Shown here: positions 2,330 to 52,371 of the stretch, in pieces
Position numbering within the stretch: position 1 is the stretch's first letter
Layout: each line of letters starts with the position of its first letter
From: Chitinophaga arvensicola
Lineage (GTDB): Bacteria; Bacteroidota; Bacteroidia; Chitinophagales; Chitinophagaceae
DNA length: 64,000 bases
Assembly: GCF_900110835.1 (NCBI RefSeq)
Contig: NZ_FOJG01000001.1
Span: forward strand, 3,131,499 to 3,195,498
Direction: 5' to 3'
Program-made: the position numbers and the translations under genes
Notes under the pieces: generated by a model
What the model was told of the DNA's origin: nothing
Seen by the model: only the letters and a program-made list of their open reading frames with translations
Database searches by the model: none

Positions 2330-3673
2330 ATGATTATCTGGTTACAATTTGCTGTTTTATTAGCCGCTATTCTTGTTGGTGCCCGCATGAAAGGTATCGG
2401 ACTTGGTGTGATGGGTATGGTGGCGCTGGCTATCTATATCTTTCTTTTCCGGATGCGCCCTGCAGATCCGCCGATTGATGTGATGCTGATCATCCTGGCA
2501 GTGGTGACTACTGCCGCTACCCTGCAAGCAGCCGGTGGTATGGATTACCTGGTACGACTGGCAGAAAAGATCCTGAGAAGTAAACCCGCATTGATTGTAT
2601 TGCTCGGCCCGCTGGTAACGTATATGTTTACCCTGTTTGCCGGTACCGCGCATATTACGTATTCCCTTTTACCCATTATCGCAGAAGTATCTACCAAAAA
2701 AAGAATACGCCCTGAAAGAGCCCTGAGCATTTCTGTAATTGCTTCCCACCTGGCGATTACGGCCAGCCCTATTTCGGCCGCTACCGCAGCTATTCTTACT
2801 ATATTAAGCGGTAAAGTGGAATTGCTGGAAATCCTGAAAGTGTGTATTCCCGCCACGCTGGTGGGTACATTGGCAGGAGTCGCCGTCTGCTGGAAGCAGG
2901 GGAAGGACCTCGATAAAGATCCGCTGTTCCTGGAGAAAATGAAAGATCCCGAATTTGCCAAAAGCATTAATGCAGATACAGAAGCGGCACAGGCGCCCTT
3001 GCAACCCGGCGCCAAAACTTCGGTGCTGATCTTTGGATTGGCGGTGCTGCTCATCGTGCTGGTGGGTGCTTTCCCGGATATGTTACCCTCTTTTGGGGAA
3101 GGCCTCAGTAACCTGGCGGTAGATGCTGCCGGGCGTATTAAAATGTCGGCCATTATAGAACTGGTAATGCTGGCCGCCGCCGCTGCTATCATGCTGTTGT
3201 GTAAAACATCCGCCGCCTCTGTGGCAAAAGCCTCTTTGTTTACTTCCGGTGCACAGGCCGTAGTATCTATCTTTGGCGTGGTATGGATGAGCGCCACTTT
3301 TATGCAAACAAATACCGCTGTCATTGAACATACCCTGGGCGATATGGTGCGCTCTGCTCCCTGGACATTTGCCATCGCATTGTTCCTGCTCAGTATCCTG
3401 TTGTTCAGTCAGGCTGCCACTACCAAAGCACTGATGCCGCTGGGCTTATCACTCGGCATTATTCCGCCCCACCTGGTGGCCATGTTCCCTGCGGTGAACG
3501 GCGATTTTGTATTACCCGGATATCCTACCCTGCTGGCTGCTATCAATTTCGACCGTACCGGCAGTACCCATATAGGTAAGTATCTGGTGAACCATAGCTT
3601 TATGATCCCCGGTCTGGTCAGTGTCAGTGTTTCTGTAGCCGTCGGGTTCCTGCTGGCTGGGATATTGTGGTAG
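2330..3673 (+). CDS. dcuB: Anaerobic C4-dicarboxylate transporter, DcuA/DcuB family
   Basis: A 447-residue polytopic inner-membrane protein with about ten or more hydrophobic segments. The C-terminal region around PAVNGDFVLPGYPTLLAA, then a FDRTGSTHIGKY segment, is typical of Dcu carriers. The family catalyses fumarate or aspartate uptake in exchange for succinate during anaerobic growth. It lies 142 bases after aspA, with a hairpin between them, and 41 bases before the porin ORF. I cannot separate DcuA from DcuB reliably, so the symbol is a family-level call. Confidence 0.88.
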   Translation: MIIWLQFAVLLAAILVGARMKGIGLGVMGMVALAIYIFLFRMRPADPPIDVMLIILAVVTTAATLQAAGGMDYLVRLAEKILRSKPALIVLLGPLVTYMFTLFAGTAHITYSLLPIIAEVSTKKRIRPERALSISVIASHLAITASPISAATAAILTILSGKVELLEILKVCIPATLVGTLAGVAVCWKQGKDLDKDPLFLEKMKDPEFAKSINADTEAAQAPLQPGAKTSVLIFGLAVLLIVLVGAFPDMLPSFGEGLSNLAVDAAGRIKMSAIIELVMLAAAAAIMLLCKTSAASVAKASLFTSGAQAVVSIFGVVWMSATFMQTNTAVIEHTLGDMVRSAPWTFAIALFLLSILLFSQAATTKALMPLGLSLGIIPPHLVAMFPAVNGDFVLPGYPTLLAAINFDRTGSTHIGKYLVNHSFMIPGLVSVSVSVAVGFLLAGILW

Positions 3674-3714
3674 CATCGGTTACCGCATATTTTAACTTCC
3701 GAAATCTAACAATT

Positions 3715-4878
3715 ATGCATATCCGCAAATTGCTCATGGTGGGTGCACTGCTGTGCACATTTACTGCAACTGCACAACAGCAGGAAGCCGCCAATGATAC
3801 GCTGCACACCCCGCTGATACCGGTCCCGAAACAATCGTTGCTCAATAATGTGGATGTAATCGCGAACATGCGCTTTGCTTTCCGGAATGACTTCGAAAAC
3901 GGCACCTACACGGGGTCGCGGTTTGTGAATGAACAGTTCCGGCTGGAGATCAAAGGAAAGGTCGCTGATAAGCTGTATTTCCGTTTCCGCGATCGCTATA
4001 CCCGCGACCCGGTGACCCAATCGGTCGATAACCTGAGCCGTTCTACTGATCTGGCTTTCCTGCGTTTCGATCCAAATGAAAAGTGGAAGATCTACGCAGG
4101 TAAATTGTGCGCCGACTGGGGCGGTTATGAATTCGATGCCAACCCCATCGACATTTATGAATACTCCGACATAATTGAATATGCGGATAACTTCCTGACC
4201 GGCGCCGGTGTTGGCTTTATGGCCAGCAAAAATCATGAATTTACTTTCCAGCTGTTGAACAGCCGCACCAAAACTTTCGAAGAACTATATGATTCCATCC
4301 CCGGCATCAATGAAAGCAAGTTTCCTTTTGCTGCCGTAGTTAACTGGCGGGGTAATATGTTTGACGGTAAGTTCAGCACCATCTGGTCTTACAGTGTTTT
4401 TAAAGAAGCGACGAGCCAGTATATGAATTACATCGCGTTGGGTAACCAGTTGTCTTTAGGCCGTTTCCGGCTGCAGTACGACTTTAAACTGAGCCTGGAG
4501 AACCTGGATCGCAAAATGATTGTGAGTAGCTTTACGGCCGATAAAAAGGCCGTGCAGGGGGTGCGGTATATGAGTCATTGGTTAAGCGCCGATCTGCAGA
4601 TCAGCCGCATTGTACACCTGGCCTTTACCGGGATGGTGGACTATGCTTACTGGGATGGCAACCCCGATCCCAATAAAGATAAAAAGCTGCGGACTGCCTG
4701 GGGATATATTCCCGGCGTAGAAGTGTACCCGTTAAAAAGTGTGAACCTGAAAGTATATGCGAATATGATCGGCAGGATATACCGTTACACCGATTATGCG
4801 AAAACGGCGTTGGGAATGGTGAACAATGATAATTACCGTTTCTCTGTAGGGATTGTAACGCCGCTGCTGATATTGTAG
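3715..4878 (+). CDS. Porin, phosphate-selective O/P-like
   Basis: A 387-residue outer-membrane beta-barrel candidate. The in-frame codon at 3667 would overlap the end of dcuB. ATG 3715 is preferred because it directly starts a signal peptide (MHIRKLLMVGALL, cleavage near TATAQ). The mature part has the alternating aromatic pattern of OprP/OprO-type porins of Bacteroidota: an early MRFAFRNDFENG strand, repeated RLEIKGKV / LYFRFRDRY strands, and a C-terminal hydrophobic strand. It would supply outer-membrane passage for the dicarboxylates handled by aspA-dcuB; that role is inferred from position only. Confidence 0.75.
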   Translation: MHIRKLLMVGALLCTFTATAQQQEAANDTLHTPLIPVPKQSLLNNVDVIANMRFAFRNDFENGTYTGSRFVNEQFRLEIKGKVADKLYFRFRDRYTRDPVTQSVDNLSRSTDLAFLRFDPNEKWKIYAGKLCADWGGYEFDANPIDIYEYSDIIEYADNFLTGAGVGFMASKNHEFTFQLLNSRTKTFEELYDSIPGINESKFPFAAVVNWRGNMFDGKFSTIWSYSVFKEATSQYMNYIALGNQLSLGRFRLQYDFKLSLENLDRKMIVSSFTADKKAVQGVRYMSHWLSADLQISRIVHLAFTGMVDYAYWDGNPDPNKDKKLRTAWGYIPGVEVYPLKSVNLKVYANMIGRIYRYTDYAKTALGMVNNDNYRFSVGIVTPLLIL

Positions 4879-4936
4879 GAGTACGCCTCCGGCACCAGCC
4901 CAATCCTTATTTGATGATCATCTGGTTTAAAAGATC

Positions 4937-4976
4937 CGGGGAGATAGAAGCGAATTTATCCGCTTTTATCTCCCCG
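4937..4976. terminator. Inverted repeat between convergent genes
   Basis: Arms of 16 bases (4937-4952 and 4961-4976) pair with a single G-T wobble around an 8-base AT-rich loop. It lies between the porin (plus) and the MG2/plug gene (minus), so it could terminate both. There is no strong T-run on either side. Confidence 0.55.
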
Positions 4977-5035
4977 AAATATTTAGCAACAAAAGGCAGG
5001 AGCGGCAAGACAAATGCCAGCGGCGCTCCCTTCAC

Positions 5036-7492
5036 CTAGAACTCCTGCTCCAGGCGGCCTACACTGCCGTCTTCACCAATACCTTCCACGACTAAACGAA
5101 AACGTTTGGTAAAGTCATTGTTGTAGAACTCGACTCTGGCGGTATGCGTCAGGGTATCGATCGCTACGTTTGGATTCCAGTAAAGGGTGAGGCGTTTATC
5201 AGGTAGTGCATGTACTTCTTTCTTTACTGAATAATCAGGAGAATAGAATTGTTTTACTATCTGGTAGCCTGCTTTTTTATACAGTTTGAAACCACGGATG
5301 CTCGGATCATTTTTCGGTGTATTGTCGCCACCTTTTTTGGTGTATACCGCAATGGCGCCATTTGCGCCGCCTGCGCCGCCCATAAATGGAGGACGGAATA
5401 CTTTGATGTACGCAATATCCTGGATGGAGAGTGTGCTGATCATACTCACGTCCGACTGCATTTCATTCAGATATAACCCCGGTGCGCCACCGCGCCAGGA
5501 GAGTGATGGATTGTTATAATCGCCGGTGATCTGCAGACCCGCCACTTTGGATTGCAGGTATTGGAATACGTTTAGTGCAATCGGTGTTTCCTTGGTGAGG
5601 TCAAAAGAGTAACCATCACCACCGGAGAACATGCCGGAAGCATAGCGTTTGTCGGTGGTTTCTTCCGGTTTTACTTTCTTCGCATCTACGTTTACTTCTT
5701 TGAGGTACACCGTTTTGTTATTGATAGAGCGGTTTACCTTATTACCTTCCGACGCATTGGCCAGGAATTGCTTCAGCGCATTGTTATCCACTGCCGGTGG
5801 TACCCTCAGTGGATAAGGAATTTTAACCTGGGTAGGACGTTCAAAGAAGTGATTGTCGAATTTCACATTCACATCTACGCCTTTTTTCACGAGATCATTT
5901 CCCTGGTAGTAGATATATGCCGTATCCGGGAATACCATGTTCGCCATTTCAAACTGTCCCTTATCATTGATCGGGGTAGAGGCAAACATGGAGGAGCTGT
6001 CTATCGGGAGACGGATAATCATATCCAGTTTACCGGTAGGCATCGGGCGGCCATTGAGCATGGTGGCCAATCCTTTCATTAGCAGTCCCTGCTCATAAGG
6101 GAACCTGATTTCAGGGAATTCGTTATTGAGGATCTTTTCCCAGCTGAAACGTCTCCATCCGTTGGTGAGCATGATCAGGTCCAGCCCTTTGAGCGTAGAA
6201 TCCGCCTCATTGCGGAAATACCAGGATGGATTGTAGATATAGCCTTTCAGGTCGGAGGTGAGCAGGAAGGTAGAGATGATATTATTGGAATTTTTATCTA
6301 CCGGTACAGCATCTGCATCTGTAATAGACATGGAGATGTTGGTTTGCATGGTATCCGGTAACCTCAGTTCAATGGCATTTTTTGCCCTGGGTTCCTTGTG
6401 GGTGTCGGCATCCAGTACATCCATCTGCATCAGGTCATTTTTGCGGACGAAGGCAAGCCTTTCTGCCAGCGGCTGACCGGATTTAGCGAAGAGGGTGATC
6501 TGGATGATACCGGAAGGAAGATGATCTGCGGGGATAAAGCCGCTGATACGGCCTTCACCGATATCGAGGTTTGCTTTATACACCAGTTGTCCGCCCATCT
6601 GTGCGATAATCACGAGATCATTGAAAGAAGTATCCGTTACATTTCCGGGAACGGCCTGGTAGAAGATGCGGTTGCCTTTATTGAATACTTTCAGGGATGC
6701 GCCTGTGGCAACGGCTGCCGGCAGGGCAATGGTTTTCGTTTGTCCTTTTGCGCTTTTCACCACGGCCTGGAATGCATCCTGTGCATCGGCAGGGGTGATG
6801 TCGATGGTACCCATACCATCGTGAATGCTTTTAAGGGGAACGGTTACACCTTTACTGTTTTTTACGGTACCGGATACTTCAATGGGATAGCCGTTGTTGT
6901 CGATGGCTTTAAAAGCCACTACGTTTGGCTGCCCCACGATGAGGTTACCGCCTTCGGGGAAAAACTGTACGGCAAAGTCGGGAGTGGTAACGCTGTCGGC
7001 GTCTGCCTGTGTTTTCTTTGCCGGATCAAAAATTTCTATGTTCCGGTTATAGGTGAATGCGGGATCGAAATTGAGCATCCAGGCAGTATAGGCACGGAGC
7101 TGGTATACGCCGGGCTTCTGCGTTTCGGGCAGGTCGAAATTACCCGGTGCGCCGGCATTACCTGCGGCAAACAGTTTCTTCTGTACAATGTTATTATTCT
7201 TGTCCAGCAGTTCTACGTAAAGGTTGGTGGCCGAAGTGGAGGGCATGCCCTGCAGGGTGATATATGCTTTGAACCAGATGGTTTCTCCTGCGGCGTAGTA
7301 ATCTTTGTCGAGATGCAGATACACTTTTTCAGCCGGGAAGCGGCTGCTATGGGTCTGCAATGCTTTTATGATGCGGTCGGACCAGTCATTCGGATGTGGA
7401 AATATAGCCAGTGCACTCATTGCGCCGGTTAACATCACGGCTGGTATCATCCATTTCAGGTAACGTCGCTTTTTCTTCAGGTACGATTGCAT
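5036..7492 (-). CDS. MG2-domain / TonB-plug-like outer-surface protein
   Basis: An 818-residue protein. Residues 13-31 form a hydrophobic export segment after a basic K/R stretch. Residues about 50-150 resemble a macroglobulin MG2 domain (VYLHLDKDYYAAGETIWFKA is the usual motif in Bacteroidota). The C-terminal third ends in a TonB-receptor plug-like region with GGANGAIAVYTKKGG, similar to the plug of SusC proteins, but no 22-strand barrel follows. Such proteins are common in Bacteroidota and are not well understood; they may present a plug domain to a TonB or export partner. It is monocistronic by layout and divergent from the flavoprotein gene at 7614. Confidence 0.7.
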   Translation of the reverse strand: MQSYLKKKRRYLKWMIPAVMLTGAMSALAIFPHPNDWSDRIIKALQTHSSRFPAEKVYLHLDKDYYAAGETIWFKAYITLQGMPSTSATNLYVELLDKNNNIVQKKLFAAGNAGAPGNFDLPETQKPGVYQLRAYTAWMLNFDPAFTYNRNIEIFDPAKKTQADADSVTTPDFAVQFFPEGGNLIVGQPNVVAFKAIDNNGYPIEVSGTVKNSKGVTVPLKSIHDGMGTIDITPADAQDAFQAVVKSAKGQTKTIALPAAVATGASLKVFNKGNRIFYQAVPGNVTDTSFNDLVIIAQMGGQLVYKANLDIGEGRISGFIPADHLPSGIIQITLFAKSGQPLAERLAFVRKNDLMQMDVLDADTHKEPRAKNAIELRLPDTMQTNISMSITDADAVPVDKNSNNIISTFLLTSDLKGYIYNPSWYFRNEADSTLKGLDLIMLTNGWRRFSWEKILNNEFPEIRFPYEQGLLMKGLATMLNGRPMPTGKLDMIIRLPIDSSSMFASTPINDKGQFEMANMVFPDTAYIYYQGNDLVKKGVDVNVKFDNHFFERPTQVKIPYPLRVPPAVDNNALKQFLANASEGNKVNRSINNKTVYLKEVNVDAKKVKPEETTDKRYASGMFSGGDGYSFDLTKETPIALNVFQYLQSKVAGLQITGDYNNPSLSWRGGAPGLYLNEMQSDVSMISTLSIQDIAYIKVFRPPFMGGAGGANGAIAVYTKKGGDNTPKNDPSIRGFKLYKKAGYQIVKQFYSPDYSVKKEVHALPDKRLTLYWNPNVAIDTLTHTARVEFYNNDFTKRFRLVVEGIGEDGSVGRLEQEF

Positions 7493-47957: not shown

Positions 47958-49683
47958 AGTTGCTGGTGCTTTGTTGGGAATTAAAGATCTGCATGTACTC
48001 AGGACTGGAGTGCAGGAGCGATTCATGCGTGCCGGCGGCTATGATTTCACCCTGCATCAGCAGGATGATCTGGTCGTAATGGGTCACGGAAGCAATCTTC
48101 TGTGTCACCGACAGCAGCGTGATGCCCGGGTATTCTGCCTGTACATTGGCCAGAATTTTCTTTTCCGTATTGGTATCTACGCGGGCGGTGAAATCATCCA
48201 GCAGCAGGATCTTTGGGTTAATAGCCAGCGCGCGGGCCAGCATGATACGTTGTTTTTGTCCGCCGGAAAGACTGGCGCCTCTTTCTGACACCACCGTCTC
48301 CAGTTTCTCCGGAAGGGCTTCGGTAAAGTCTTTCAGCTCCGCAGTATATAAGGCTTTTTCCATCGCCGCCTGGGTCACGGTTTCATTAAAGGCGATGTTT
48401 TCGCGGATACTCATATTGAATATGATACTATCCTGGAATACAAAGCCCACCTGGCTGTGGAAGGATTCACTTTTATATTCGCTTACCGGGCGGTCATCTA
48501 TCAGCACGGTACCCGAAGTGGGCTTTATGAGGCCGGTGAGCAGGTACAGCAGCTGTGTTTTCCCCGCCGCCGTAGGCCCGATGATAGCGACCTTCGATCC
48601 GGCTTTAATAGAAAACGAAATATTTTTAAGCACCGGTTTCTGACCGTAGTTAACGGTTACTTCCCGGAATTCGATATCTCCCTTAACAGGGGTAGTAAGA
48701 TCACCCTCCGGCATAATATCCGGCATATTGATCACGTTGCTGATCCTTTGATAGGAGGCGGTGGCCTGCGCAATGATATTGCTCATAAAGCCAATGACCA
48801 GTATCGGGAAGATGAGTAACGCGAGGTAGCTGCTGAATGCCGCAAAATCGCCCAGGCTCATACTGCCGGTGATCACAAAATGTCCGCCGAGCGCGAGGAT
48901 AATCAGGTTGGCAATACCGGCGGTGAAGGTGATTACCGGGATCAGTCCTGCAAAGAGTTTCACGATAGAAAGACCAAAATCCATGGCCTTGCCGTTGGCA
49001 TCCAGGAATTTCTGGTATTCCAGCTGCTGGGAATTGATGACGCGTATCAACGCGGCGCCCAGGATACTTTCATTGATTACCTTATTCAGCCAGTCCATAA
49101 CCTCCCGGCTTTTAATAAACAGGGACCTCACTTTGCGCAGTACCAGGAAAAAGGTAACGCCTATCACCGGCAATGTGGCAATTACAGCCAGCGCCAGTTT
49201 CCAGTCGATCGTGATCAGCAGTACGCTGGCGCCGATAATGATAAACAGGGAAGATACCAGCGATACAATTGCCTGTGATACAAACAGCTTGATAGAGTCT
49301 ACGTCTGCAATGAGATTGGTGAGCAACCGCGAAGGGTTGGCCTGTTCTACCCAGGCATAACTCTGTCCGGATATCTTATCAGATATTTTGGTACGCAGGT
49401 TACGCGCTACTTTTTCAGAGACATATGTTTGAATGATGTTCTGGAAATAAGTAAACAGCAGGATGATGACAACCGCAACGGAGAATTTAATGACCAGCGG
49501 GTTTAGCTGGAAGGTACCATGCTCATAGGCATCGATACCGTTTCCGATAATTTTGGGCAACCACAGGTTGAGTCCATTGCTCAGCAGTGTAAACAGTATC
49601 AGCAGAAACACCATACCAGAATATGGCCGCAGGAGACTGAATATGCCGGCTTCTTTCTTTTTACTACCTTCTTCTTGTTTCAT
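47941..49683 (-). CDS. ABC exporter subunit with degenerate ATP site
   Basis: A 580-residue transmembrane/ATPase fusion. Walker A GPTAAGKT (369-376) and the signature LSGGQ (472-476) are intact, but Walker B ends LLLDDFTARVD with Asp497 in place of the catalytic Glu, and the switch His is replaced by Gln528 (SVTQKIAS). Its own Walker motifs would face the partner's non-canonical VSLGQ in the degenerate site, while its LSGGQ completes the partner's active site. This is the typical heterodimeric exporter plan. First gene of the operon, divergent from the Coq4-like gene. Confidence 0.9.
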   Translation of the reverse strand: MKQEEGSKKKEAGIFSLLRPYSGMVFLLILFTLLSNGLNLWLPKIIGNGIDAYEHGTFQLNPLVIKFSVAVVIILLFTYFQNIIQTYVSEKVARNLRTKISDKISGQSYAWVEQANPSRLLTNLIADVDSIKLFVSQAIVSLVSSLFIIIGASVLLITIDWKLALAVIATLPVIGVTFFLVLRKVRSLFIKSREVMDWLNKVINESILGAALIRVINSQQLEYQKFLDANGKAMDFGLSIVKLFAGLIPVITFTAGIANLIILALGGHFVITGSMSLGDFAAFSSYLALLIFPILVIGFMSNIIAQATASYQRISNVINMPDIMPEGDLTTPVKGDIEFREVTVNYGQKPVLKNISFSIKAGSKVAIIGPTAAGKTQLLYLLTGLIKPTSGTVLIDDRPVSEYKSESFHSQVGFVFQDSIIFNMSIRENIAFNETVTQAAMEKALYTAELKDFTEALPEKLETVVSERGASLSGGQKQRIMLARALAINPKILLLDDFTARVDTNTEKKILANVQAEYPGITLLSVTQKIASVTHYDQIILLMQGEIIAAGTHESLLHSSPEYMQIFNSQQSTSNYELQS

Positions 49684-49860: not shown

Positions 49861-50559
49861 ATGAATCTCATCCAGCTATCTGCCCGCTTTATTATTCGTC
49901 AGTCTTTCCATTTGTCCGTAAAAATTATTGAAAGTTGTAGTGATACCAGCACCTGCCGGGAGCAGTTGCAGGCACTGAAGCAGTTACCACCGGGTACGCT
50001 TGGCCATGACATCGCCAGCTGCCTCGAACAGCACCGGTTGCGGCTCGTTCCGGGTTTTGAAAGTCACGACCTGAAACACGTATTGCTTGGATTTAAAATG
50101 ACGCCGGAAGATGAGATCCGCCTGCAGGCATTTATGATCGGTAACGGCAACTATACCATGGCCAGCTTTGCGATCTTTATTTACGGGGCACTGCTATTAC
50201 CGGACCGGTGGAGCACTTTCTACAGCGATTGGTGCAAAGGCCGGGAAACTGTGCCGGTAAGTACCTGGACCCTGGAAAGCCATGCGTACTGTGATACAGT
50301 TGCCATTCAGCAATATATTGCCCATCCTGTACCGCAAATTCCTTTTATGAACAGATTTGTAAAATTCGGCGCTATGGCCGCCATCGTAGCCGGTGTATCC
50401 GGTATGCTCTTTTGCCTGCCCTTCCTGTTTTCAGCCTCGGTAGCCGACCTGGTGGGCGCCGGGTTTCCTTTTGTAGGTGGTGCAGTTATCGCCAGCGCAG
50501 GATTGATAGCATTGTCGAATGTAACAGGTATAAAGGCGAAGGAAGTATTAGCAGTGTAA
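49861..50559 (+). CDS. Coq4-like protein with C-terminal membrane helices
   Basis: A 232-residue protein. LPPGTLGHDIASCLEQ (43-58) and the HDLKHVLLGF segment give the Coq4 metal motif HDxxH-x11-E: His69, Asp70, His73 and Glu85 are all present. The C-terminal part has two hydrophobic helices (about 165-185 and 195-220) that could anchor it in the inner membrane. Coq4 acts in ubiquinone synthesis in eukaryotes and proteobacteria, but Bacteroidota use menaquinone, so the role here is open. The frame is open upstream to 49519, but ATG 49861 gives the family N-terminus. It begins a four-gene coupled operon (3 bases to the next gene). Confidence 0.72.
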   Translation: MNLIQLSARFIIRQSFHLSVKIIESCSDTSTCREQLQALKQLPPGTLGHDIASCLEQHRLRLVPGFESHDLKHVLLGFKMTPEDEIRLQAFMIGNGNYTMASFAIFIYGALLLPDRWSTFYSDWCKGRETVPVSTWTLESHAYCDTVAIQQYIAHPVPQIPFMNRFVKFGAMAAIVAGVSGMLFCLPFLFSASVADLVGAGFPFVGGAVIASAGLIALSNVTGIKAKEVLAV

Positions 50560-50562
50560 TTT

Positions 50563-51009
50563 ATGCAAGCCATCATTTTTTGCGGCATTCAGGCCAGCGG
50601 CAAGACTTCCTTTTACAAAGCGAATTTTTTTGATACCCATATGCGGATCTCCATGGATCAGCTGCATACCCGTAATAAGGAAAGTCGCTTCCTGGAAGTC
50701 TGCTTTTCCATACAGCAGCCCTTTGTGGTGGATAATACCAACCCTTCCCGGGCAGACCGGGAATCGTATATCCGGCTTGCCAAACAGCACAAGTTTAAAG
50801 TCACCGGTTATTATTTTCAATCGGCGTTAACCACGGCTATCCAGCGCAACAGCGGCCGTTCCGGAAAAGCAAATATCCCGGAAGCGGGTATCCGGGGTAC
50901 GCATAAAAGGCTGGAACTGCCGGCATATGACGAAGGGTTTGACGAGTTGTACTATGTGGCCATTCAGGATAATACCTTCATTATTAAACCATGGAACAAT
51001 GAAATTTGA
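50563..51009 (+). CDS. Polynucleotide 5'-kinase, T4 Pnkp-like kinase domain
   Basis: A 148-residue P-loop protein: Walker A GIQASGKT (8-15), Asp32 in MRISMDQLH as the likely general base, VVDNTNPSRADR (56-65) and a lid RNSGRSGKANIPE (95-107) that closely parallels the RNSKRGTKA lid of T4 Pnkp. The family phosphorylates 5'-OH ends of RNA or DNA. There is no phosphatase or ligase domain, so it is a free-standing kinase. It starts 3 bases after the Coq4-like gene and overlaps the Thg1-like gene by 11 bases. Nucleic-acid substrate is inferred; a small-molecule kinase is the main alternative. Confidence 0.75.
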   Translation: MQAIIFCGIQASGKTSFYKANFFDTHMRISMDQLHTRNKESRFLEVCFSIQQPFVVDNTNPSRADRESYIRLAKQHKFKVTGYYFQSALTTAIQRNSGRSGKANIPEAGIRGTHKRLELPAYDEGFDELYYVAIQDNTFIIKPWNNEI

Positions 51010-51757
51010 CGACCTTGATGTGAAAATGCGGGCGTTTGAAACAGCACATGATCAGCAGGTGCTGCCGGAAATGTATATGGTAGCCCGGATCGATGGCCGT
51101 GGTTTCACCCGTCTGACCAAAGAAACACATTCTTTTGAAGCGCCGTTCGACGCGCGTTTCAGGGATTATATGATCGATACCACTGCGCATCTGATGAACT
51201 GTGGCTTTAAAGTAATATACGGTTATACCCAGAGCGATGAGATCTCGTTGTTGTTTGATGTCAACGAATCTGCCTTTTCCAGGAAGCACCGGAAATATAT
51301 TTCTATACTTGCGGGGGAAGCCAGTGCAAAGTTTTCTACCTTGCTGGGGGATGTGGCGGCATTTGATTGCCGGCTCAGTGAATTTCCCAATGAAAGGCTG
51401 GTCGTGGATTATTTCCGCTGGCGCAACGAAGATGCACACCGGAATGCACTCAATGCCCATTGCTACTGGCGTTTGCGGCAGGATGGGCTGAACAGGGCCG
51501 ACGCGACCAAAAGAATAGAAGGACTAAGCACTGCGGAAAAGAACGAGCTGCTTTTCTCCTTTGGCATTAACTTTAACGACCTTCCCCTCTGGCAGAAAAG
51601 AGGAACCGGCCTTTACTGGGCGGATACGGAGAAAGAAGCATTTGATATAAAACAACAGACAACCGTTACTGTTAAAAGAAAGCAGCTGCAACGGAACATG
51701 GAATTACCCATGAAAGATGATTACAGCAATTTCATCAACACTATTATAAACGCCTGA
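50999..51757 (+). CDS. Thg1-like protein (tRNA 3'-5' polymerase family)
   Basis: A 252-residue protein beginning MKFDDLDVKMRAFET. The palm-domain carboxylates are in place: Asp32 in ARIDGRGFTRLTK, and Asp80-Glu81 in GYTQSDEISLLF, the spacing of Thg1 enzymes. The later YFRWRNEDAHRNALNAHCYW stretch is the usual TLP form of the region. Thg1 adds G(-1) to tRNA-His; bacterial TLPs repair 5'-truncated tRNAs using the 3' strand as template. ATG 50999 overlaps the kinase gene by 11 bases. Context with a 5'-OH kinase supports RNA 5'-end repair. Confidence 0.9.
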   Translation: MKFDDLDVKMRAFETAHDQQVLPEMYMVARIDGRGFTRLTKETHSFEAPFDARFRDYMIDTTAHLMNCGFKVIYGYTQSDEISLLFDVNESAFSRKHRKYISILAGEASAKFSTLLGDVAAFDCRLSEFPNERLVVDYFRWRNEDAHRNALNAHCYWRLRQDGLNRADATKRIEGLSTAEKNELLFSFGINFNDLPLWQKRGTGLYWADTEKEAFDIKQQTTVTVKRKQLQRNMELPMKDDYSNFINTIINA

Positions 51758-51759
51758 CT

Positions 51760-52371
51760 ATGCCCTGGATCCAGCACCCGATACGCCTCGATGGCCAGCA
51801 TGCACTCCTCACACCGCTGGAGTATCTTCACTTCAATGAGCTGATCAATGTAAGCCATGATCCGCGCATATGGGAGTTTATGCCGGTGATGGGACATGAT
51901 CCGGCCACTTTGCGTAATGCATTGGAACAGGCCATGGAGGCAAGAAATAAAAATGAACGTTATCCATTTGTGATCATTGATAAAGCCAGTAACAAAGTAA
52001 TCGGCAGTACCAGCTACCTGAAAATCAACCCGGAATACAAAAGCCTGGAAATCGGGTGGACCTGGTATCATCCTGATTACTGGGGCACGGGCGTCAATGA
52101 AGAATGTAAGCTGATGCTGCTCACCCATTGCTTCGAAACATTGGGGACCATCCGGGTAGAAATCATCACCTGGGATAAGAACCTCCGTTCCAGGAAAGCC
52201 ATAGAACGTATTGGAGGCCAGCTGGAAGGTATCCGCAGAAATGCGGCGATCCGGTACAATGGCAAAAGGAATTCGGTTATTTACAGCATCATTGATGAGG
52301 AATGGCCGGCCACCAAAGTGAAGCTGACCGACCTCAAAAACCAGCGCTATCAACAGTTGAAGACCAGGTAG
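51760..52371 (+). CDS. GNAT acetyltransferase, RimJ/RimL-like
   Basis: A 203-residue GNAT protein: RLDGQHALLTPL at the N-terminus, VIGSTSYLKINPEYKSLEIGWTW strands, WGTGVNEECKLMLLTHCF in place of the acetyl-CoA loop, and NLRSRKAIERIGGQLEGIRRN, all typical of RimJ/RimL-type N-acetyltransferases. Substrate may be a protein N-terminus, an amino acid or an antibiotic. It starts 2 bases after the Thg1-like stop, so it is part of the same operon, although this could be chance co-location. Confidence 0.85.
   Translation: MPWIQHPIRLDGQHALLTPLEYLHFNELINVSHDPRIWEFMPVMGHDPATLRNALEQAMEARNKNERYPFVIIDKASNKVIGSTSYLKINPEYKSLEIGWTWYHPDYWGTGVNEECKLMLLTHCFETLGTIRVEIITWDKNLRSRKAIERIGGQLEGIRRNAAIRYNGKRNSVIYSIIDEEWPATKVKLTDLKNQRYQQLKTR

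Follow-up and report, generated by a model that had tools for sequence, protein, structure and literature searches.

Gene layout of the locus

The window (the whole 64,000-nucleotide stretch of Chitinophaga arvensicola DNA that was analyzed) contains a tightly packed cluster of four plus-strand genes, the features of which are as follows.

49861-50559, plus strand: Coq4-like gene (ORF, 232 aa; family by Pfam), judged a passenger
50563-51009, plus strand: stand-alone polynucleotide-kinase-like P-loop kinase (148 aa), core part 1
50999-51757, plus strand: Thg1-like gene (252 aa), predicted TLP class 3'-5' RNA polymerase, core part 2
50999-51009, plus strand: overlap of the kinase end and the Thg1 start, 11 bases (ATGAAATTTGA)
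51760-52371, plus strand: GNAT acetyltransferase gene (203 aa; family by Pfam), judged a passenger

From the ORF coordinates, 3 bases separate the Coq4-like and kinase genes, the kinase and Thg1-like genes overlap by 11 bases, and 2 bases separate the Thg1-like and GNAT genes, in agreement with the four plus-strand ORFs and spacing reported in the initial annotation. The longest ORFs of the Coq4-like and Thg1-like genes begin farther upstream (at 49519 and 50927, respectively); the shorter starts (49861 and 50999) are backed by homologues. The Coq4-like gene is probably cotranscribed with the kinase-Thg1 pair in this genome. Promoter-like sites numbered 9 (5.6 in shuffles; standard deviation, 2.3) and terminator-like sites numbered 6 (3.8 in shuffles; standard deviation, 2.2), so neither count is informative, and no Rfam family reached the gathering score between 45000 and 58000. 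The gene upstream of the Coq4-like gene reads, by sequence, as an ABC transporter.

The small kinase is polynucleotide kinase-like

The kinase matched AAA_33 in Pfam (PF13671; E, 2.7e-12), and its best NCBIfam match was PNK-3'Pase (TIGR01663; E, 1e-8), a partial match whose 34 bits lie far under the cutoff of 502.8. A Walker A P-loop and a PNK-type lid are both present. The lid string RNSGRSGKA occupies residues 95 to 103; in an alignment of 50 sequences, the window copy included, N96 and R99 were invariant, and R95 and G101 were conserved in at least 90%. A profile search matched mPNKP at an E value of 1e-17, and the best 14 rows of a fold search comprised 12 polynucleotide kinases and 2 fungal kinases with GDP. 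The kinase is closest to polynucleotide kinases by profile and fold, and the T4 Pnkp-like motifs originally assigned to it were recovered. Its P-loop kinase fold is common to gluconate kinases, PFKFB, and seryl-tRNA(Sec) kinase as well, which favors an alternative in which the substrate is a small molecule or nucleoside and the pairing with Thg1 serves nucleotide supply, RNA capping, or signaling rather than end healing; we consider this alternative quite improbable.

No phosphatase, ligase, or any second domain was found in the 148 residues of the kinase. The lack of a phosphatase had been recognized in the initial annotation, which gave it more importance than it appears to have, because extension of the 5' end of an acceptor stem templated by the 3' strand would need no healed 3' end. 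A defense-library scan of the four window proteins returned a single match, of the kinase to AriA (E, 0.017), which was not used. A viral scan led by the kinase gave 127 stretches, 1 of which was confirmed, and was nonexhaustive, as kinases known from another search were missed.

The Thg1-like protein retains the catalytic residues of its family

Two Pfam models matched the Thg1-like protein above their cutoffs: Thg1 (PF04446; E, 1e-31; 110 bits versus 29.2) and Thg1C (PF14413; E, 1.8e-18; 67.3 bits versus 26.3). Residues D32, D80, and E81 were invariant among 48 aligned sequences and align with segments DGR and SDE of the human protein; a metal-binding role is described for the catalytic carboxylates of the Thg1 family (PMC3701042). 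At the site of the HINNLYN motif, which is eukaryote specific according to PMC6471195, the protein has HRNALNA. These domains and the retained catalytic residues uphold the original Thg1-like assignment; by sequence, the protein belongs to the TLP class of the Thg1 superfamily, and 3'-5' polymerase activity is predicted for it.

In a Thg1 tree of 81 rows (L001 and the truncated L071 were excluded), phyla mostly clustered (9 changes, where the least number is 6). The window protein clustered with L003 to L006, all from Chitinophaga, and the remaining Chitinophaga rows were scattered over several places in the tree. This scatter makes repeated gain possible but not proven.

Kinase and Thg1 genes form a conserved overlapping pair

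Thg1 was present in 29 of 79 genomes of the genus, and the kinase (E < 1e-9) was present in 30. By coordinates, every Thg1-positive genome (29/29) carried the kinase within about 50 bases (Fisher P for co-occurrence, 9e-21, a value that ignores relatedness). Across 395 genomes of the phylum, the 4 with a close Thg1 were the same 4 with a strong kinase match, and the genes adjoined. A wider neighbor survey, for which 80 of 215 confirmed genome relatives were kept, placed the kinase upstream of Thg1 in 79 of 82 loci. The gene order comparison proposed in the initial annotation thus found the kinase-Thg1 pair conserved; the full order of four genes occurred, among the loci examined, in the window genome only.

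The spacing of the pair was nearly fixed. Of the 82 loci, the window copy included, 78 had a measurable kinase, and the overlap was exactly 11 bases in 69 of these, with overlaps of 14 bases in 6 and 4 bases in 2 and a gap of 32 bases in 1. The overlap read ATGAAATTTGA in 46 loci and ATGAAGTTTGA in 14. An overlap that recurs with one length at so many loci is not due to chance; it probably couples translation of the kinase and the Thg1-like protein. Kinase and Thg1 distances were correlated over 72 loci (Mantel r, 0.61; best of 2,000 permutations, 0.22), and in one genome (G226) both genes were broken or partial. Across phyla, the kinase and Thg1 genes of this subfamily overlap and are nearly obligate partners.

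Neighbor clustering over 81 loci revealed no general third partner gene: the large clusters were those of Thg1 and the kinase only, and the next largest comprised 10 scattered loci. A scan of adjacent proteins at the other loci covered 65 proteins, with the first 25 of 102 families listed. A subset of the published bacterial Thg1-PNK operons also has a MACRO domain or RNA ligase gene; neither was found by Pfam in the four window proteins.

The Coq4-like and GNAT genes are judged to be passengers

The Coq4-like protein matched Coq4 (PF05019; E, 1.1e-5; 25.3 bits versus a cutoff of 22.9) over residues 67 to 122 only (56 residues). The HDxxH-x11-E metal motif of Coq4 (PMC9774615) is intact, its residues H69, D70, H73, and E85 do not vary among 6 aligned sequences, and the C terminus forms a hydrophobic hairpin (hydrophobic windows begin at residues 165 to 208). 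Profile matches were to 3msq (E, 3.9e-4) and 6e12 (E, 0.13), and a structure model was of low confidence (pLDDT of only 58). The GNAT protein matched Acetyltransf_3 (PF13302; E, 9.2e-23).

The initial annotation had included both proteins in the repair unit; conceivable roles there would be anchoring to the membrane and acetylation. The tight packing in the window favors such a functional unit of four genes, as does the finding that three close relatives have a small ORF, made up of the same hydrophobic hairpin, 3 to 6 bases before the kinase. Gene order argues against it. Of 20 loci in the genus, the window is the only one at which the full Coq4-like gene adjoins the pair (1/20) and the only one at which a GNAT gene adjoins Thg1 (1/20), and at L003 to L082 neither adjoins the pair, the nearest GNAT matches being at least 3.4 kb away. 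Two relatives (G180 and G160) have the full Coq4-like gene and no Thg1. The Coq4-like gene lies on a contig other than that of the pair in three draft assemblies (G175, G181, and G168) and 535 kb from the pair in G153; the matches in G153 and G168 are partial. Locus L003, which is syntenic with the window on both flanks, lacks both genes. Participation of the two proteins in repair is therefore highly improbable, and both genes were judged to be passengers in the window genome.

A proposed pathway for RNA 5'-end repair

The two protein families, the conservation of residues in their active sites, and the overlapping pairing of the genes, all computed here, make it likely that the kinase and Thg1-like genes constitute a two-enzyme RNA 5'-end repair module. 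In such a module, the small kinase would move a phosphate from an NTP onto the 5'-OH of an RNA; the most likely substrate would be a tRNA with a nuclease cut in its 5' strand. Next, the Thg1-like enzyme would activate the resulting 5'-monophosphate and add nucleotides in the 3'-5' direction, copying the 3' strand of the acceptor stem, which is intact, and the near-fixed overlap would probably keep synthesis of the two proteins in step. The bacterial and archaeal TLPs studied prefer to repair 5'-truncated tRNAs, and their activation begins at a monophosphorylated 5' end (review, PMC6471195); nucleotide addition by related TLPs is template dependent in published work. A kinase that makes 5'-phosphates for a 3'-5' polymerase, as first suggested from the sequence, remains the best reading; neither its extension to four genes nor the idea of an unfamiliar pairing was supported.

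Membership in the Thg1 family, and the ability of bacterial and archaeal homologues to add G-1 in vitro (PMC6471195), would also fit a role in tRNA-His maturation, with the kinase readying the 5' end and the Thg1-like enzyme adding G-1. However, the three tRNA-His genes found in this genome encode G-1 opposite C73 (58 of 67 tRNA matches were read), so that its addition would be redundant. Within the genus, 67 of the 79 genomes matched the encoded G-1 pattern, as did 27 of the 29 with Thg1, an absent match being ambiguous, and 50 of the 79 show no Thg1. Since G-1 is encoded, this role is extremely unlikely.

A second route would end in ligation: the kinase would phosphorylate the 3' fragment of a cut RNA, the Thg1-like enzyme would activate it as 5'-App or similar, and the break would be sealed by the Thg1-like enzyme itself or by a separate RNA ligase, with extension secondary. 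Ligation through 5'-App is offered as an alternative in PMC2904730. ATP-dependent RNA ligases match strongly at three loci of the genome (best E, 2.6e-27), and RtcB matches at two. Within the genus, strong RNA ligase matches (E < 1e-15) occurred in 28 of 29 genomes with Thg1 versus 37 of 50 without it (Fisher P, 0.013), but this association was rejected: among genomes of at least 6.8 Mb it was gone (25/26 versus 26/29; P, 0.61), and genome size may therefore explain it. In addition, Pfam found no ligase among the four window proteins or in the next gene, and the neighbors at 81 loci show no general third gene. Five relatives have an RNA ligase with a kinase ORF of weak similarity (373 to 391 aa) about 0.9 kb away, which suggests that those ligases come with their own kinases. 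We judge the ligation route, as a whole, unlikely.

Nuclease neighbors and significance

End repair by the kinase-Thg1 pair could also be a repair arm for surviving the cell's own, or foreign, tRNA-cutting immunity, that is, a transferable two-gene kit for 5'-end restoration that is linked directly, on occasion, to a tRNase or RNase system. A MazF-like toxin gene lies 1 base upstream of the pair at L059, from an Acidobacteria genome, and RlaP precedes the pair with a gap of 0 at L057, from a Planctomycetota genome; each is a single locus with no matched background. A cut in the variable loop is internal, and 5' extension alone would therefore not mend it. This immunity reading is tentative and, on balance, unlikely. 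RlaP is a nucleotidyltransferase family named for RNA repair. At another locus (L048), RtcR was considered as a regulator and rejected: the protein matches RtcR models only at positions about 138 to 479 and not in the N-terminal part, where the CARF of RtcR would lie.

According to a 2019 review (PMC6471195), the question of which biological substrates bacterial and archaeal Thg1-like proteins use was not entirely addressed. A kinase pairing this strict, and an overlap that stays the same from phylum to phylum, suggest nuclease damage, in the form of a 5'-OH end, as the starting state of the natural substrate in this subfamily. A prediction of the main pairing dates from 2010; the value of this analysis lies in a sharper prediction, in the removal of two false partners, and in the identification of a few loci at which a tRNA- or RNA-cutting system adjoins the kinase-Thg1 pair.

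Comparison with known systems

PNKP, T4 Pnk, and Clostridium thermocellum PNK carry phosphatase or ligase domains besides the kinase, whereas the window kinase is a stand-alone protein of 148 aa without them. The locus also differs from Pnkp-ligase cassettes and from the Pnkp1-Rnl-Hen1 complex (PMC4411300), in that its four proteins and the following gene include no RNA ligase (Pfam) and no methyltransferase. The Bacillus thuringiensis TLP (PDB 4kgk; PMC3701042) belongs to the same family (phmmer E, 1.2e-17) and has like catalytic carboxylates, although the window protein scores higher to human Thg1 and chain 5axk than to 4kgk. In the text of PMC3701042, the words "operon" and "neighbor" are absent, and "kinase" appears once, as a reagent.

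The closest precedent is the work of Anantharaman, Iyer, and Aravind (2010; PMC2904730), in which PNK is the most persistent neighbor of bacterial Thg1 and the same repair role is proposed for the pair; the pairing, taken to be unknown in the initial annotation, had thus been predicted. A nonexhaustive literature search found no other source for it. The portion of that paper examined does not describe co-occurrence across the genus, the nearly constant overlap, or the rare nuclease neighbors. The predicted Thg1-PNK operon and the locus described here share a kinase that adjoins Thg1 and is kept across lineages, to which the window adds the Coq4-like and GNAT genes as passengers.

Organization of the four-gene block

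The initial annotation had described four tightly packed plus-strand genes, and this packing was confirmed at 49861-52371 of the window, where the successive gaps are 3, -11, and 2 bases. Pfam assigned the genes as follows.

49861-50559, plus strand, gene 1: Coq4-like gene (Coq4, partial match)
50563-51009, plus strand, gene 2: polynucleotide-kinase-like P-loop kinase (AAA_33)
50999-51757, plus strand, gene 3: Thg1-like protein (Thg1 plus Thg1C)
51760-52371, plus strand, gene 4: GNAT (Acetyltransf_3)

The genome itself (8.3 Mb, three contigs) contains one Thg1 match, and the nearest four Thg1 relatives in the genome collection (among the best 80 of 215) are Chitinophaga.

Conservation of the kinase-Thg1 pair

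The conserved unit is two genes, kinase and Thg1. Scanning genomes with the Thg1 protein as query gave 215 relatives; the best 80, which span Bacteroidota, Bacillota, Pseudomonadota, Myxococcota, Planctomycetota, Acidobacteriota, and others, were taken for locus study with the window copy and one family member, giving 82 loci that lean to the query's own subfamily and include near-copies of one another. For these two genes the gene order held across relatives, with a same-strand kinase ORF upstream of Thg1 in 79 of the 82 loci and none at the other three (L058, L075, and L081). At the 78 junctions measurable by tblastn, the genes overlap by exactly 11 bases at 69 loci, by 14 at six, and by 4 at two, and are separated by a 32-base gap at one. 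Both the pairing and this overlap are established. Kinase and Thg1 protein distances correlate (Mantel r of 0.61 over 72 loci, against at most 0.22 in 2000 permutations).

Within the genus, Thg1 was matched in 29 of 79 genomes and the kinase (E<1e-9) in 30; coordinates place a kinase within about 50 bases in all 29 Thg1-positive genomes, and at this threshold G245 alone has a kinase without Thg1. Intactness of both partners is not universal: both are broken or partial in genome G226, an internal stop interrupts Thg1 in G235, where the adjacent kinase match is full-length, and the kinase match in G229 is limited to residues 73-148. Among 395 phylum genomes, a close Thg1 was found in four, with a strong kinase beside Thg1 in those same four; a fifth, distant Thg1 (G579) occurs without a kinase, and weak kinase matches occur alone in two genomes. 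Thg1 is present in only 2 of 147 sampled genomes of the family, and the distribution of the pair is therefore patchy.

Five more weak kinase matches in the genus (E of 1e-4 to 1e-3) fall within ORFs of 373-391 aa; two are in genomes without another kinase match. All five (genome:contig:position G239:C22:391248, G156:C6:222109, G153:C1:2860269, G238:C1:5589241, and G166:C1:592053) have an RNA ligase match about 0.9 kb away and possibly represent separate kinase-ligase cassettes. Separately, in nine genomes (G000, which is the organism's own, and G153, G164, G165, G209, G219, G233, G234, and G240) the pair and a tRNA-His gene are about 37-110 kb apart, which may mark one old chromosomal location; elsewhere the separation is larger or the two sit on different contigs.

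Thg1 relatives are common on viral contigs (581 confirmed). Among the best 80 of these 581, most Thg1 genes had no such kinase within the flanks searched; the kinase adjoins Thg1 in four, upstream at L175 and L179 and downstream at L182 and L183, and lies 2.3 kb from it at L219. The reversed order, Thg1 then kinase (L182:4001-5246 and L183:4001-5241), is a second arrangement of the pairing.

The Coq4-like and GNAT genes

The Coq4-like gene and the GNAT, initially taken as parts of the unit, are passengers outside it. Locus L003, which contains neither gene, is syntenic with the window on both sides. Its two upstream ABC transporter genes are 85 and 87% identical to those in the window, and its downstream sigma factor, FecR-like, and SusC-like genes are 81, 72, and 80% identical, the sigma factor starting 99 bases after Thg1. 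Among 20 fetched genus Thg1 loci, only in the window does a GNAT adjoin Thg1 or a full Coq4-like gene adjoin the pair, and in three others the C-terminal hydrophobic hairpin is the only part of the Coq4-like protein encoded ahead of the kinase. The hairpin of the window gene (49861-50559) recurs in three relatives as an independent small ORF that holds tandem copies (e.g., L004:5160-5558). The Coq4-like protein was matched in 9 of 59 relatives; the full gene occurs without Thg1 in G180 and G160, the match and Thg1 are on different contigs in G175, G181, and G168 and 535 kb apart in G153, and the hairpin alone matches in G164 and G165.

Predicted function of the pair

The window Thg1 matched human Thg1 (E of 1.1e-26), chain 5axk, a Thg1-like protein (1e-24), and the Bacillus thuringiensis Thg1-like protein (TLP) 4kgk (1.2e-17), and all 48 aligned sequences keep D32, D80, and E81; these residues and the families of both partners are established. 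Eukaryotic Thg1 has HINNLYN, a motif termed eukaryote-specific in PMC6471195, whereas the window protein has HRNALNA at that motif and therefore sits with the TLPs. According to published work, the bacterial and archaeal TLPs studied favor repair of 5'-truncated tRNA over addition to full-length tRNA-His and add Watson-Crick paired nucleotides, and TLP activation begins at a 5'-monophosphate.

Maturation of tRNA-His is unlikely to be the main role of Thg1, because G-1 is already encoded. The own genome gave 67 tRNA matches, of which 58 were read (the remaining nine are 84-87 bases long), and the three tRNA-His genes among these 58 all encode G-1 with C73. The encoded-G-1 pattern was matched in 67 of 79 genus genomes, 27 of them among the 29 Thg1-positive genomes, an absent match being ambiguous. 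Two tRNA-His copies are standard; the third, unlike them, lies within a six-tRNA array (L131, G000:C3:1085588-1086098; transcription order Gln, Ile, Gln, His, Tyr, Phe) that may be carried on a mobile element. A 117-base tRNA covariance match (L130, G000:C2:1756314-1756430; 53.1 bits) with no ARAGORN call is a tRNA-like gene carrying an insertion or else a pseudogene.

Two-step repair of 5'-OH RNA is the best-supported account of the pair. The kinase would phosphorylate a 5'-OH end, presumably on RNA damaged by a nuclease; the Thg1-like protein would then activate the 5' end, followed by templated 3'-5' addition, if the polymerase activity of studied relatives carries over. The two genes would be translationally coupled. 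Ligation following activation is kept as a live minor alternative because RNA ligases and RtcB are encoded in the own genome. An apparent RNA ligase excess in Thg1 genomes vanishes among larger genomes.

For two-step repair, neighboring genes offer hints at the source of damage. Across the 77 other loci where the kinase was measured, the pair has 70 same-strand neighbors no more than 150 bases away; 65 were scanned jointly (first 25 families per library), some also singly, and the named neighbors among the matches listed are mostly ordinary metabolism, transport, or regulation genes. Four loci, single cases without a matched background, provide the hints. In a Planctomycetota MAG (L057), RlaP (PF10127; E of 2.1e-56; 4722-5558), an RNA repair pathway member of the polymerase-beta family, abuts the kinase upstream with zero gap. 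In an Acidobacteria MAG (L059), a MazF-like toxin gene (E of 1.3e-28) lies 1 base upstream of kinase-Thg1 and is preceded by a small ORF, named by none of the libraries and read as antitoxin-like (595-2362 in all). In a Sericytochromatia MAG (L080, 3466-6759), the Septu genes PtuA (E of 4.3e-92) and PtuB (E of 7e-39) lie upstream of kinase-Thg1, with PtuB and the kinase overlapping by 4 bases. In a Bacillota MAG (L039), an ADP-ribosylglycohydrolase ORF (2846-3814) overlaps the Thg1 end. A cut in the variable loop, being internal, would be beyond mending by 5' extension alone.

Comparison with the published pairing

No experimental test of the published Thg1-kinase pairing was found in the papers examined. 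The pairing had initially been thought unknown, and PMC2904730 shows that the central idea was already published; the kinase-Thg1 pair is real and of the published type. The present analysis extends it by showing that the two genes co-occur across the genus and overlap by a near-fixed 11 bases, by excluding the Coq4-like and GNAT genes, and by pointing to a few nuclease-linked loci.
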